Assembly: GCF_963676935.1 (NCBI RefSeq)
Contig: NZ_OY781470.1
Span: 2,700,680 to 2,764,679 of the forward strand
Length of the DNA stretch: 64,000 nucleotides
Direction: 5' to 3'
From: Halarcobacter sp.
Lineage (GTDB): Bacteria; Campylobacterota; Campylobacteria; Campylobacterales; Arcobacteraceae
Made by a program: the position numbers and the translations under genes. Positions 1-4,490 of the stretch are shown in pieces. The stretch's first letter is position 1; each line of letters opens with the position of its first letter. Below the pieces are notes generated by a model. The model had not been told where the DNA came from and ran no database searches. It was given only the letters and a program-made list of their open reading frames with translations.

Positions 1-1336
1 CCGTTTGAGGATTAACTTTTTCTCTTACTTCAATTGCAACTTTTCTTAACATTGAAGTTACATCATCCACAACAAGTACTGGTATTTTTAAGCCTTTTGC
101 ATACTCTTCTCTATCAACAACAATTGTGTTTACACCTTTTTTTACACAAGAGTTTATCCTTTCCATAATAACTTCAGAAGAAAGGTTTTCTTTTCTCCAA
201 TCTGATAAAGATACAAAAAAACTAATAAAACCTTTTCTAGCATCGCTGTGAGTTCCAACTCTTGAGTATAAAATATTTGGATTAAAATTAATCCATTTCC
301 CACCTGTTATTTTTGTTAAATTTTCAGGAGTCAAATATATAGAATCTTCAATATTTAAAGGTATTTCAAAAGAGAATTTCTCAATAGTAGAAATAAACTT
401 TGAAGCCATATCTTTGAACTTTGAAATCTCTTCAGCTGAAGCTTCTTCTATAGAGTAGTTATATAGTTTTTCATTTGGATTTTCTAATAATTTCTTAGTG
501 CATTCCATCCCTTTTTTTATCTCATAAGCATACTCCTTATAAGAATAGGTACCATCAAAGTTTGGATTTTCAATCATTGTTGGTAATAAACCTTTATATA
601 ACAATAGATGATTTGTCAAAGTTAAAAATGTTCTACAGTTTCCATCTGGGAAAGGGTGTAATAACTCAATCTCCTGAATAAACTTAGCTATTTCACTTAT
701 GATATTATCTTCACCTTCTAGTTTTTGTAGTTTTTGATTAAATCTATTTACAATCTCTTCCATTTTTTTTGCAAATTGAAGTTGCACATAAGCTTTAGCT
801 TCATAAAACTCTACAAAACTTCCTTTTTGATCCAAGATATTTTTAGTCTTTTCATCCAACTCTGGAAACCAAGGATTAAATTGTAGTTTTCCTCTTTTCA
901 TTAATCGTTTATATACATCAAAAACATCTAAATCTTTCGCAGATTTTTCAAAACCTTTATTATGAAAAAGCTTTACATTGTCATTTTTTCTTAATTCAAA
1001 TAACTCTTTAAAAAACTCTAATGTTGTTCTTGCAGCAAAAAATTTAAAACCAGTTTCTTCACATCTTAAATCTCCTGGTGAAGCTTCCCTTAACGTTGAA
1101 TGAACATTAAACATACAAATATGATGAAGGTTTCTTAAATAGTGGCAACTAACACCTTTTGATAAATCAAAATTTTCTAGCATATGGGTATATGCATTAA
1201 TCATCCCTTGCGTTGAACCATTCTCTTGATTTTCATAACCTGTCCAACCACGATATTTTTTATGAAACCTTCCATCAATAAAAAGTCTCCATAATTGTCT
1301 TTTATCAATCTTTTTTAAAGCACTTATACCATCCAT
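1..1336 (-). CDS. Fic-domain protein fused to a Mur-ligase-type domain (partial, 3' end off window)
   Basis: The frame is open from ATG 1336 to the window edge (445 codons seen). Residues ~227-235 read HPFPDGNCR, the Fic active-site loop (consensus HPFx[D/E]GN[G/K]R). Cys stands where Gly or Lys is usual, and Leu stands at the second Arg. Fic enzymes usually transfer AMP or another phosphate-containing group to proteins. Residues ~336-445 resemble the N-terminal domain of MurE/MurF ligases: LTKITGGKW, a YSRVGTHSDARKG stretch like the family's DSRKxxxGD segment, then IPVLVVDDVTSML. The ATP-binding GKT domain would lie beyond the edge. The gene starts 24 nt after the toroid gene's stop, so they are probably co-transcribed. 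Fic is well supported; the Mur assignment is from pattern only, and the substrate is unknown. Confidence 0.72.
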   Translation of the reverse strand, partial: MDGISALKKIDKRQLWRLFIDGRFHKKYRGWTGYENQENGSTQGMINAYTHMLENFDLSKGVSCHYLRNLHHICMFNVHSTLREASPGDLRCEETGFKFFAARTTLEFFKELFELRKNDNVKLFHNKGFEKSAKDLDVFDVYKRLMKRGKLQFNPWFPELDEKTKNILDQKGSFVEFYEAKAYVQLQFAKKMEEIVNRFNQKLQKLEGEDNIISEIAKFIQEIELLHPFPDGNCRTFLTLTNHLLLYKGLLPTMIENPNFDGTYSYKEYAYEIKKGMECTKKLLENPNEKLYNYSIEEASAEEISKFKDMASKFISTIEKFSFEIPLNIEDSIYLTPENLTKITGGKWINFNPNILYSRVGTHSDARKGFISFFVSLSDWRKENLSSEVIMERINSCVKKGVNTIVVDREEYAKGLKIPVLVVDDVTSMLRKVAIEVREKVNPQT

Positions 1337-1360: not shown

Positions 1361-3172
1361 CTATTTTAATACTTTTAATAATCTTGCAAAAAAGCAAGCT
1401 GCATGTTGTACAGAATCAACCCTTACCCATTGTCTAGTTAATTTAAACCTAAAGCTATGTAGTGCTTTTTTAGGATTTATATGACAATAGTTTGATTTTT
1501 CATCATGAAAAGTTTTCATCAAACCTTCTGCACTTAACAACATATGCTCCATTATCCACGAAACCTTCTCTTCATCTTCTAAATATTTAGCCAAATAATA
1601 AGCACTAACTACACCTTCACATCTTGAAGCATCATGATAAACATGGTCTCCAAACTGATAAAAGAACCCACCTATATAATCTTTATTTCTTTTCAAAGTA
1701 TTATATTCTGTATACATATGCTTAAACATCTGTTTTGTATCATTAAATACAAAATCTATATAAGCTTGTTTTTTTAAGCCATCTACTTTTACCCACTCCT
1801 CAATTGCTTGCATAAGCCATGCATCTGCTGGTAAGGGTTCAAATAAATAATCATACTTTATGGGTCTAATATCAACTAAAAAATCTAATGCTTTTTCACT
1901 TTTTTCTTTTATCTCTTCTTGAAGTTTTTCATCGACATTTTTCATATGTCGATAGTATAAAGCTAGACCCAAAAGAGCTTCACCGGGATAATAAAAAGAG
2001 AATAATTCTTTTTTTGTTTCATCATCAGGATTAATTATTGGTTTCCCATCATTATATTTAGGATGGATATAATAACCAATCATTTCACCCTCTTCATCAA
2101 TTCTACTAAGAATATGTCTTACTAGACCCTCCATATATTTATTATATTTATTACTTTTAGAATTAAGATAATAATGCATTAAAGATACAAGTCCTATTCC
2201 AGCCCCACCAAGTTTAGATTTTTTGTTAAAAAAAGGGAAACAAGAATATTTTCCATCTATTTTTTCTTCTTTAAATGTTGAGATAAAAAAATCAATTGAA
2301 TCTTTTGCTTTTTCTAAATAACTCTTTTCACCTGTTAATTCATATCCTCTAAGTAAAGTTATCGTTCCACCACTATGTCTTAATATATTATTATATAAAG
2401 GATCAATCATATTAGGATGCATATCATCAACTATTGTATTTTTATAAGGGTCGTAAAAATATAAAAAACTTCCATTATCATTCATATTTTCAACTAACCA
2501 ATTAATACTTTTAATAGTTTTATCATAAACTATTTCTTTATTAAAATCTACAGGTAAAGGGTACCCCCTTTGTAATTCTAATACCTGATTTTCGTAACTT
2601 ACATAAGCTTTTGAATCTATAAAAGTATATTCTATATCTTCCCTTCTCATTAAATGAACACGTTCACTAATTTTATTTGTTCTTTTTGCTATATCACACT
2701 GTTTTGATAGAAAATTTAATAACTGATTTACACTCATGATAGACTTGGTATAAGCATCCGTTGGCATAAAATAGTGAAGAATATTTTTATATTTCCATTT
2801 TAAACCATTTACTCCAGGTTCAAACCTATTTGGAGAGTTCATTTTCATTGTGGTTAAATTTCTTATATTGCAAGGATATTCTTTAGTGACTATCTCAAAT
2901 AAAATACGACATTTTGTTTTATCAAGTAAATTAAAATTTAAAAAGTTAGGATTTGTTCGTAATTTAAAAATTACTCTATTTATACTATCTTCAAAAGTAT
3001 TCTTTTTTGACCCCCATCTAATTGGTCTTTGAGCTTCTTGAAAAAGAGTTATATATATTTGAGAGATTTTAGGGTCAAAATCTATTTTATTTTTATTAGT
3101 TGCTACAAAAGGCTTATTATATGATAAAGCCTCTCTTATATCATTAAAAAGATTTTCTACAGTCTTTATCAT
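1361..3172 (-). CDS. Alpha/alpha-toroid (six-hairpin glycosidase-like) protein, function unknown
   Basis: This 603-aa protein has no signal peptide, so it is probably cytoplasmic. Residues ~215-600 are regularly spaced helical hairpins with aromatic/Gly turns (LRHSGGTITLLRGYELTGE, FSFYYPGEALLGLALYY, YHDASRCEGVVSAYYLAKY), the look of the six-hairpin glycosidase / epimerase toroid fold. Residues ~1-190 are a separate domain; its FEPGVNGLKWKYKN...FMPTDAY stretch faintly recalls AMMECR1, which I do not rely on. A ribosome site AAAGGTG precedes the ATG. It lies 13 nt after the ankyrin-OmpA gene and 24 nt before the Fic-Mur gene, suggesting one transcript. It could process a glycan or peptide product of the ligase partner (inference). 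Confidence 0.6.
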   Translation of the reverse strand: MIKTVENLFNDIREALSYNKPFVATNKNKIDFDPKISQIYITLFQEAQRPIRWGSKKNTFEDSINRVIFKLRTNPNFLNFNLLDKTKCRILFEIVTKEYPCNIRNLTTMKMNSPNRFEPGVNGLKWKYKNILHYFMPTDAYTKSIMSVNQLLNFLSKQCDIAKRTNKISERVHLMRREDIEYTFIDSKAYVSYENQVLELQRGYPLPVDFNKEIVYDKTIKSINWLVENMNDNGSFLYFYDPYKNTIVDDMHPNMIDPLYNNILRHSGGTITLLRGYELTGEKSYLEKAKDSIDFFISTFKEEKIDGKYSCFPFFNKKSKLGGAGIGLVSLMHYYLNSKSNKYNKYMEGLVRHILSRIDEEGEMIGYYIHPKYNDGKPIINPDDETKKELFSFYYPGEALLGLALYYRHMKNVDEKLQEEIKEKSEKALDFLVDIRPIKYDYLFEPLPADAWLMQAIEEWVKVDGLKKQAYIDFVFNDTKQMFKHMYTEYNTLKRNKDYIGGFFYQFGDHVYHDASRCEGVVSAYYLAKYLEDEEKVSWIMEHMLLSAEGLMKTFHDEKSNYCHINPKKALHSFRFKLTRQWVRVDSVQHAACFFARLLKVLK

Positions 3173-3185
3173 ATATCACCTTTTT

Positions 3186-4490
3186 CTATCTAGTTTCTAT
3201 TCTAAATTCAACTCTTCTTGATAATTCATAATTCTCACTTCCATCTTTGTTATAAATAACTTCTGAAGATGATTTACCTTCAGGGATAAAAGTATTTTGT
3301 ATAAAATTTTTATTATCTAAAACTATTGAATTATTAATTCCTTCTAAATATTCTAAAATAGCATCTGCTCTTTTTTGAGATAAAATTTTATTTTTTTCAA
3401 ATTTTTCCTCAGGTGTTGGAGCTGTTCTGTATCTAGATGAAGTATGACCCTCCACATGAATATTTATAATCTCATTGTTATAATTTTTTAAGATATTTAC
3501 ATATTTAGGAAAAAATTGATTTAAAATCTTTTTATACTTATCATTTATTTTACTACTTCCCCTTTTAAACATCATAGCTGGATCTTTAAATCTAAATGTT
3601 AATGTATCTTCATCTAACTGGGCATTCCATATTGCAAAATCATCTTTAAACTCATCATTTAAAACATCATATAATTCATTTATCACATAAATTTTTAACT
3701 CATCTTCAACTTTTCCTCTTTGACTAGCAGAGTTTATAGCCATAGCCATTACATTGTATGTTCCATTTTCAACTTTTGTCTCAACTTGTGCACACCATCT
3801 ATTATCTTTTAATTCTGCTTCAGTTACGGTTTTCCCACCATCAAATGTTATTTGTACTTGTTTTACATCCGAGTCAATAATATTCCCACATATTTTTGGA
3901 GTATTATCATTGATTACATCATTATCATCAATTGTAATTAAATTATAAAACTGTTCTTTAGGCTCAACTTCCACCTCTTCTTTATTTGAACAAATAGGTT
4001 CAATATCATCAGCTCTTAAAAGTTTAGAGATATAAACATCATTTGTTTTAGAAGCATAATGTAATGCAGACATTTCGTACTTATCTAAAGTATCTCTATT
4101 TGCTCCATTACAAATTAAAAGTTTTGATACATTTGTGTAACCATTTCTAGTAGAATCTATTAAAGGTGTATCACCATATTTATCTTTTGTATTAACATCT
4201 GCACCTTTTTCAACTAATAGTTTTGCAATATCAAAATGATTAAATCTAGCTGCAAGATGTAAAGGGGTATAACCAAATCTATCTTTTTTGTTTAAATCTA
4301 CACCTTTATTAATAAAAGTTTTAACTAATTCTAAATCGTTAATTCTAACTGCATCATGTATTGTTGTACCAATTGTATTCTCTTTTTTTGCACTTATATC
4401 TGATAAATTTAATTGATTTTCTTTTTTTACACAACCTGTAAATATGAAAATTGTAACTATAAAAAATGAATATATTAATTTTTTTGACAT
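3186..4490 (-). CDS. Ankyrin-repeat / OmpA-domain lipoprotein
   Basis: The 434-aa product begins with a lipoprotein signal peptide; the lipobox is FTGC with Cys ~20. Residues ~40-160 carry about four ankyrin repeats (DRFGYTPLHLAARFNHFDIAKLL, shortened here: GYTPLHLAA, GDTPLIDST, EMSALHYAS). Residues ~195-270 look like a bacterial Ig-like domain (VQITFDGGKTV...NGTYNVMAMA). Residues ~305-434 are an OmpA C-terminal peptidoglycan-binding domain (INIHVEGHTSS, KRADAILEYL, LSRRVEFRIE). It is therefore an outer-membrane lipoprotein that could grip peptidoglycan and present ankyrin repeats in the periplasm. A TATAAT box lies 35-40 nt upstream of the ATG. It heads the probable operon with the toroid and Fic-Mur genes. 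Ankyrin-OmpA fusion is uncommon; its role is unknown. Confidence 0.8.
   Translation of the reverse strand: MSKKLIYSFFIVTIFIFTGCVKKENQLNLSDISAKKENTIGTTIHDAVRINDLELVKTFINKGVDLNKKDRFGYTPLHLAARFNHFDIAKLLVEKGADVNTKDKYGDTPLIDSTRNGYTNVSKLLICNGANRDTLDKYEMSALHYASKTNDVYISKLLRADDIEPICSNKEEVEVEPKEQFYNLITIDDNDVINDNTPKICGNIIDSDVKQVQITFDGGKTVTEAELKDNRWCAQVETKVENGTYNVMAMAINSASQRGKVEDELKIYVINELYDVLNDEFKDDFAIWNAQLDEDTLTFRFKDPAMMFKRGSSKINDKYKKILNQFFPKYVNILKNYNNEIINIHVEGHTSSRYRTAPTPEEKFEKNKILSQKRADAILEYLEGINNSIVLDNKNFIQNTFIPEGKSSSEVIYNKDGSENYELSRRVEFRIETR

Follow-up and report, generated by a model that had tools for sequence, protein, structure and literature searches.

The locus and its genes

The window considered here, that is, the whole stretch of 64,000 nucleotides that was analysed, comes from a Halarcobacter genome of 3.1 Mb assembled in one contig (G000:C1:2700680-2764679). 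At its left edge, a minus-strand frame starting with an ATG at base 1336 stays open up to the window edge and, in the genome sequence, runs on without any stop or frameshift to contig position 2699565, for a total of 816 amino acids from this ATG, or 821 from an upstream GTG. It joins a Fic domain to a Mur ligase, and we will call it Fic-Mur.

This gene stands in an operon, the main features of which are collected in Table 1. After a gene that we will call Lan, the minus-strand order is Fic-Mur, a stand-alone Mur paralogue (about 49% identity), a 570-aa protein with weak similarity to metalloproteases, a CapA/PGA_cap protein, a HisC-type aminotransferase, a cytidylyltransferase and a giant adhesin. 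All the genes from Lan to the adhesin lie on the same strand, and the gaps from Fic-Mur onwards are of 2, 4, 9, 17, 8 and 61 bases. The genes that follow Fic-Mur are outside the window. TolC-like and ABC genes of a T1SS, named by inspection, lie behind the adhesin. At the other end, the gene for an ankyrin/Big_13/OmpA-domain protein, which also adjoins Lan in two other loci (L037 and L040), probably belongs to the operon.

Table 1. Features of the locus (window positions, unless another sequence is named)
Feature	Position	Strand	Basis or remark
Fic-Mur fusion gene	window 1..1336	-	first 445 of 816 codons; continues past window base 1 to contig C1:2699565
AnkX-type Fic domain, residues 1-325	window 362..1336	-	phmmer, NCBIfam, model against 4bet
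Fic active-site loop HPFPDGNCR, residues 227-235	window 632..658	-	conserved in 19 relatives
N-terminal domain of MurF-like ligase, residues 331-445	window 2..346	-	model; central and C-terminal domains outside the window
Lan, 603 aa: AMMECR1-like N-terminal fold and (alpha/alpha)6 barrel	window 1361..3172	-	model, fold searches; 24 bases upstream of Fic-Mur
Ankyrin/Big_13/OmpA-domain protein, lipoprotein-like N-terminus	window 3186..4490	-	13 bases upstream of Lan
Putative T1SS giant adhesin, 5,406 aa	G000:C1:2676118-2692335 (L003:1-2336 and L004:5116-19501), outside the window	-	last gene of the operon

Lan is strongly conserved across phyla (51-72% identity). Pfam and PDB sequence searches with it gave nothing usable, and the fold search alone was informative. 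In the model (pLDDT 77.5), the N-terminal fold matches 1zq7 and 1vaj (Foldseek E 2e-5 and 6e-5), which we take to be AMMECR1-like entries, and the (alpha/alpha)6 barrel matches the GH76 structure 6y8f (Z 26.4) and cellobiose 2-epimerases (Z about 24). Sharing the (alpha/alpha)6 fold does not give Lan its function. The name Lan goes back to a weak LanC hit (E 0.05); as the fold search points to AMMECR1 followed by a glycosidase/epimerase-like barrel, we do not ascribe lanthionine chemistry to the protein.

A Fic domain of the AnkX type joined to a MurF-like ligase

Three Pfam families match Fic-Mur above their cut-offs (Fic, E 2e-7; Mur_ligase_M, E 1e-19; Mur_ligase_C, E 2e-7). An earlier note on this DNA had recognised a Fic loop and a Mur-type segment in one frame, and this is borne out by the 816-codon frame, the Pfam matches, the model folds and the recurrence of the fusion in 29 genomes. 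That one polypeptide unites a Fic and a Mur enzyme is practically certain, and chance or an assembly artefact can be ruled out as the source of the fusion, since 29 genomes carry it. The whole protein was modelled with AlphaFold2 from an alignment of 19 relatives (pLDDT 85.1); the pTM of 0.60 is modest, so that the model does not fix how the two halves lie with respect to each other.

In the ligase half, residues 331-809 of the model superpose on MurF 4qf5 (Z 35.0, 446 residues aligned, rmsd 3.1), and the MurF profile TIGR01143 matches residues 399-807 of the 821-aa frame with an E-value of 6e-46, its 157 bits being well below the cut-off of 288.6. The P-loop GTVGKT (within VGGTVGKTG) and the Mur_ligase_C domain lie in the continuation beyond the window edge, where the earlier note had proposed to look for them, and the Mur fold does cover residues 336-445. 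With a GTxGKT P-loop, a central and a C-terminal domain, the protein belongs to the Mur superfamily. As for the note's reading of the segment as a MurE/MurF N-terminal domain, the Mur assignment stands, the ligase being MurF-like and not MurE-like. The fusion Mur domains conserve the P-loop as well as the His and Lys of the central domain, and they have in common a YDQSxRG-like motif (DQSxRG), which takes the place of the C-terminal motif usual in MurF. The same genome has a separate and distant MurF-like match (C1:809055-810068), to which cell-wall synthesis would be left.

The Fic half groups, by sequence search and by model comparison, with AnkX, the FIC phosphocholine transferase of Legionella. 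Indeed, phmmer matches AnkX chains across the entire Fic module (residues 7-318 of the 821-aa frame, E 2e-23), whereas ordinary Fic proteins reach an E-value of about 1 at best. The NCBIfam model T4SS_AnkX matches with E 6e-31, at 107 bits, which is far below its equivalog cut-off of 1400. In the model, residues 1-327 align with AnkX 4bet over 293 positions (Z 27.4, rmsd 3.6, 27% identity), and the three AnkX structures 4bet, 4ber and 6sku give 26-28% identity and Z 24.6-27.4. The ankyrin repeats that follow the Fic module in AnkX are absent from Fic-Mur, where the Mur ligase takes their place. A second, ordinary Fic domain (45 bits) is found elsewhere in this genome, in a 404-aa frame (G000:C1:80309-80641, locus L001).

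The active-site loop deserves particular attention. Fic-Mur has the HxFx(D/E)(G/A)NxR loop in a Fic fold that marks FIDO proteins, and the H, P, F, D, G, N and R of this loop are invariant in 19 fusion proteins. The earlier note had pointed to two oddities, a Cys in the loop and a missing second Arg, and had suggested that the transferred group may not be AMP. Both oddities are real, and kinship with AnkX explains them. The position of the second Arg in the AMP-type loop HxFx[DE]GNGRxxR is occupied by A, S or L in all 19 relatives, and AnkX likewise lacks this Arg (HPFRDANGRTFVN in the alignment). The Cys position, which aligns with Gly236 of AnkX, is C (10) or S (9) among the 19 relatives; in two relatives that are more divergent it is G or A. 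The equivalent of AnkX Glu226 is E in 18 relatives and D in one, and that of Asn262 is N in all 19. Gly236 of AnkX is a choline-facing position, among those used for cross-linking, in an enzyme that moves phosphocholine from CDP-choline onto a Ser of Rab1 (PMC7228754); in vitro, AnkX also moves phosphoethanolamine from CDP-ethanolamine (PMC10115812). A group other than AMP is therefore probable for a Fic of the AnkX type, and since AnkX lacks the second Arg and the Cys falls on the choline-facing position, the donor is most likely linked to CDP or CMP rather than being ATP.

Distribution of the fusion

Taking together a scan of a species-representative genome collection (30 loci, one Legionella locus, L072, being set aside) and the loci of the window's family, Fic and Mur are found in one frame in 29 genomes, usually 6-25 residues apart. 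The scan loci come from Campylobacterota, Gammaproteobacteria, beta groups, Magnetococcales, Desulfobulbus and Geobacteraceae. Within the phylum the fusion is rare and patchy, since only 7 of 397 genomes have a full match, an eighth hit being a fragment of 28.8 bits.

Elsewhere the Fic domain is fused to Lan or to an ATP-grasp domain, or stands alone. It is unfused in L038, whose genome also has a fusion, in L067 and in L070, and in the clusters L038 and L070 an ATP-grasp amide-ligase-like (RimK-like) protein adjoins it, which supports a tie between this Fic and an amide ligase. The third of these is a lone AnkX-like Fic of 341 aa (L067:9941-10966) in an Alcaligenaceae MAG, with the cluster genes absent nearby. 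Some other arrangements may be mentioned: in L047, L049, L055 and L060 the Fic-Mur frame also includes a Lan-like domain, ahead of Fic; in L041 (L041:1-5433) a single frame of 1,811 aa encodes both Lan and a Mur ligase; and in the ATP-grasp-Fic-Mur proteins of L062 (L062:2775-6941) and L063 (L063:4132-8232) the Mur part has about 324 aa, its C-terminal domain seeming to be missing.

The cytidylyltransferase and the nature of the donor

The operon provides its own cytidylyltransferase, whose best PDB matches in profile searches are PntC (6pd1, E 1e-36) and LicC (1jyk, E 6e-24). The homology is full-length and covers the metal and head-group residues, Asp104 and Glu193 being invariant. An enzyme of this type is found in 32 of 34 Fic genome entries (three of which are second copies of the same genomes), at 264 bits at least in 31 of them and at 125 bits in L070, where it is fused to a HisC-type domain. 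As for the other two, the L066 genome is without a LicC/PntC-type gene, and its locus combines genes for PEP mutase, Ppd and a PhnW-like protein with one for a PF01467-like cytidylyltransferase, and the L067 genome has neither cytidylyltransferase nor cluster, its Fic being unfused. The cytidylyltransferase tracks Fic-Mur rather than Lan: it is present in 8 of 8 Fic-Mur genomes and in 0 of 9 genomes with Lan and without Fic-Mur (p 4e-5, overstated because the genomes are related), the latter nine having no LicC/PntC-type gene and nothing beyond generic matches, 64 bits at the highest. All this makes it quite probable that the donor of Fic-Mur is CMP-linked.

The enzyme that would make the amine varies at the same place of the clusters, being of HisC type, a class-V aminotransferase, or PEP mutase with Ppd and PhnW. 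Genes for 2-aminoethylphosphonate (AEP) are found in two loci. In particular, a complete AEP set adjoins an ATP-grasp-Fic-Mur gene in L039 (L039:4838-9072), in which PEP mutase and a PF01467 cytidylyltransferase domain form one protein, alongside Ppd, a PhnW-like and a PntC-like protein. Among 16 aligned sequences, the PntC Glu104 position holds Glu only in this AEP-gene locus and Asn in the other 15, so the donor probably differs between loci. AEP as a general donor was rejected for most genomes, most of them missing PEP mutase: a true one exists only in G035, in the L050 genome and, as a fragment, in that of L066. In the genome of the window, the best PEP mutase match has 122 bits, below the TIGR02320 cut-off of 319.55, which makes AEP an improbable donor in this organism. 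Comparable steps in Campylobacter jejuni yield serinol phosphate and ethanolamine phosphate (PMC12409886), and by this analogy the two would be the best candidates for the head group used by the window's organism.

The Thr-Asp adhesin and its association with Lan

The adhesin at the end of the operon contains 1,235 uninterrupted Thr-Asp units, that is, 2,470 perfectly alternating residues, which is to our knowledge among the longest perfect dipeptide tracts. It is written in eight synonymous hexamers, and 826 units depart from the commonest one, in every case synonymously, which points to selection on the protein.

Runs of 12 (S/T)D units were searched for in the 397 genomes of the phylum, the reversed pattern serving as a control and giving 0-2 matches. 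The runs are found in 14 of the 16 genomes with Lan and in 0 of the 381 genomes without it (Fisher p 5e-24, overstated because the genomes are related). The two Lan genomes without a run, G375 and G379, are drafts of about 100 contigs, and within the genus g27 the association holds with p 1e-4. With Fic-Mur, the count is 6 of 7 genomes against 8 of 390 others (p 4e-9, again overstated by relatedness), and matches are more numerous in Fic-Mur genomes than in those with Lan and without Fic-Mur (p 0.04). In the window's family, long runs occur in 5 of 5 Fic-Mur genomes and in 1 of 99 others. This exception, G057, belongs to the same genus; next to the same hydrogenase genes, and hence at the corresponding site, it has Lan and an adhesin whose tract is of 12 units; Fic-Mur, Mur, CapA, aminotransferase and cytidylyltransferase are all absent from its locus.

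The idea that Fic is what constantly accompanies the repeats was rejected, since Lan fits better. Repeats are also present in eight genomes with Lan and without Fic-Mur (342 matches in one of these), and Fic-Mur is therefore not required for them. Lan is present in all 14 repeat genomes and, without the module, in G057, and this makes it the constant partner of the tracts, the Fic-Mur module being an addition that tends to accompany longer ones. Outside the window's family, a run was not seen in 11 of 29 Fic genome entries, perhaps drafts that break at repeats.

A possible pathway and its alternatives

We lean, with moderate confidence, towards Fic-Mur being a bifunctional protein-modifying enzyme of surface-protein maturation, which would take a CMP-linked donor, act on Thr/Ser of the repeats and complete its work with a Mur-made amide. 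In the order that we propose, an aminotransferase-type PLP enzyme would make a small amino-phosphate or, where PEP mutase and phosphonopyruvate decarboxylase are present, an amino-phosphonate, which the LicC/PntC-type cytidylyltransferase would couple to CMP, using CTP. In the cytoplasm, the AnkX-type Fic domain would then move the phospho- or phosphono-aminoalkyl group onto Ser/Thr hydroxyls, most likely those of the Thr-Asp/Ser-Asp tract of the adhesin. At the same sites, the MurF-type domain would form an ATP-driven amide, either acylating the new amine or amidating an Asp carboxylate, and the modified adhesin would finally be secreted by the T1SS. The parts of this scheme do not have the same weight. 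We find it rather likely that the repeat tract is the acceptor, and the idea of a ligase tagging a protein, raised in the earlier note, comes close to this best explanation, with the giant Thr-Asp protein as its likeliest possible target. Only tentatively do we propose that the Mur domain acts on the Fic-installed group or on the adjacent Asp. It is just as tentative to see here an undescribed modification, in which Fic would place phospho- or phosphono-aminoalkyl groups along hundreds of Thr/Ser and Mur would convert each of them to an amide, perhaps with a bridge to the adjacent Asp.

The same genes could serve another end, the cluster making a product, peptide-like or glycan, that is secreted or lies at the surface, with Fic-Mur modifying this product or its carrier and the adhesin being a mere neighbour secreted by the T1SS. 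The neighbourhood lends itself to this, with CapA/PGA_cap, ATP-grasp, Mur and LPG-synthase-C-like ligases and a CapA similar to a lasso-peptide epimerase model. Moreover, the decoration of glycans and lipids is a known role of phosphonate and LicC/PntC pathways (PMC6697681). However, none of the genes in the window's operon was recognised as coding for a glycosyltransferase, and the association of the repeats with Lan is near perfect across the 397 genomes. Every characterised Fic known to us modifies proteins, and we regard such a product as unlikely, if a serious contender.

It is improbable that Fic is there to regulate another enzyme of the cluster by modifying it, be it the Mur domain itself, Lan or the T1SS. 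Many Fic enzymes do modify themselves or regulate other proteins, and here Fic is fused to a ligase, but a dedicated pathway of amine-making enzyme and cytidylyltransferase would be costly for a mere regulatory tag, the cytidylyltransferase tracks Fic-Mur, and Fic has no constant partner, being fused to Lan or ATP-grasp or alone elsewhere. No evidence was found for the suggestion, also made in the earlier note, of a Fic modifying its own ligase. Finally, an ordinary AMP-transferring Fic, or a toxin, carried with a duplicate of the cell-wall MurF could account for the Pfam Fic and MurF matches and would have a companion in the ordinary Fic of the same genome, but it is very improbable in view of the full-length AnkX match with its AnkX-type N-terminal region, the missing second Arg, the lack of any antitoxin gene adjoining Fic-Mur, the separate MurF-like match at C1:809055, the distinct DQSxRG motif and the constant cytidylyltransferase.

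If such a modification exists, Legionella AnkX would share ancestry with a bacterial surface-modification enzyme. Non-AMP Fic chemistry is known from very few enzymes, mostly injected effectors that hit host proteins, and an AnkX-type Fic in environmental bacteria, beside donor-making genes, would offer a testable origin and home pathway for it. Fic-Mur also becomes a concrete candidate for the transferase that acts after CMP-aminoethylphosphonate. The giant Thr-Asp stalks, of up to 2,470 alternating residues, gain enzymes dedicated to them, and the fusion, in an operon that ends in such a protein, suggests an undescribed decoration of these proteins with amino-phosphates. Each part is of a known family; neither their combination nor the pathway is described in the literature searched. 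Searches of open-licence papers for a fusion of Fic and Mur, for relatives of AnkX in such a setting and for Thr-Asp adhesins turned up no description, which does not prove that none exists.

Comparison with known systems

With MurF, the ligase half shares the three-domain fold, the GTxGKT P-loop and the central-domain His and Lys; it differs in falling far below the MurF cut-off and in being joined to Fic, and UDP-MurNAc is not expected to be its substrate. The Mur-like domain of the cyanophycin synthetase CphA1 also matches it in model comparison (Z 24-26). With AnkX, the whole Fic module is alignable, including an HPFxD(A/G)NxR loop without the second Arg and the equivalents of Glu226 and Asn262. 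In contrast, AnkX has ankyrin repeats and targets Rab1 of the host, whereas Fic-Mur continues into a Mur ligase, has Cys or Ser in place of Gly236 and is encoded in a biosynthetic operon with its own cytidylyltransferase.

The LicC/PntC enzymes and the tailoring with AEP offer a parallel on the donor side: the same cytidylyltransferase family adjoins Fic-Mur, and PEP mutase, Ppd and PhnW do so in two loci. In that work the transferases acting after CMP-AEP were left open, with sugar or lipid acceptors expected (PMC6697681); in the present case, the candidates are an AnkX-type Fic as transferase and a protein as acceptor. Cj1436 and Cj1437 of C. jejuni are PLP enzymes leading to amino-alcohol phosphates and then to cell-surface amides (PMC12409886), and they give a precedent for the HisC-type and class-V enzymes; the likeness drawn here is one of pathway, and they differ in serving a capsule glucuronamide, with no CMP activation and no Fic. 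The nearest functional parallel is the glycosylation of the staphylococcal Ser-Asp adhesins by SdgA and SdgB (PMC8561734, PMC3794999), where a long (S/T)D stalk also comes with dedicated modifying enzymes. These are glycosyltransferases, whereas in the Gram-negatives considered here a putative T1SS giant adhesin is accompanied by Fic-Mur, Lan and amide ligases.
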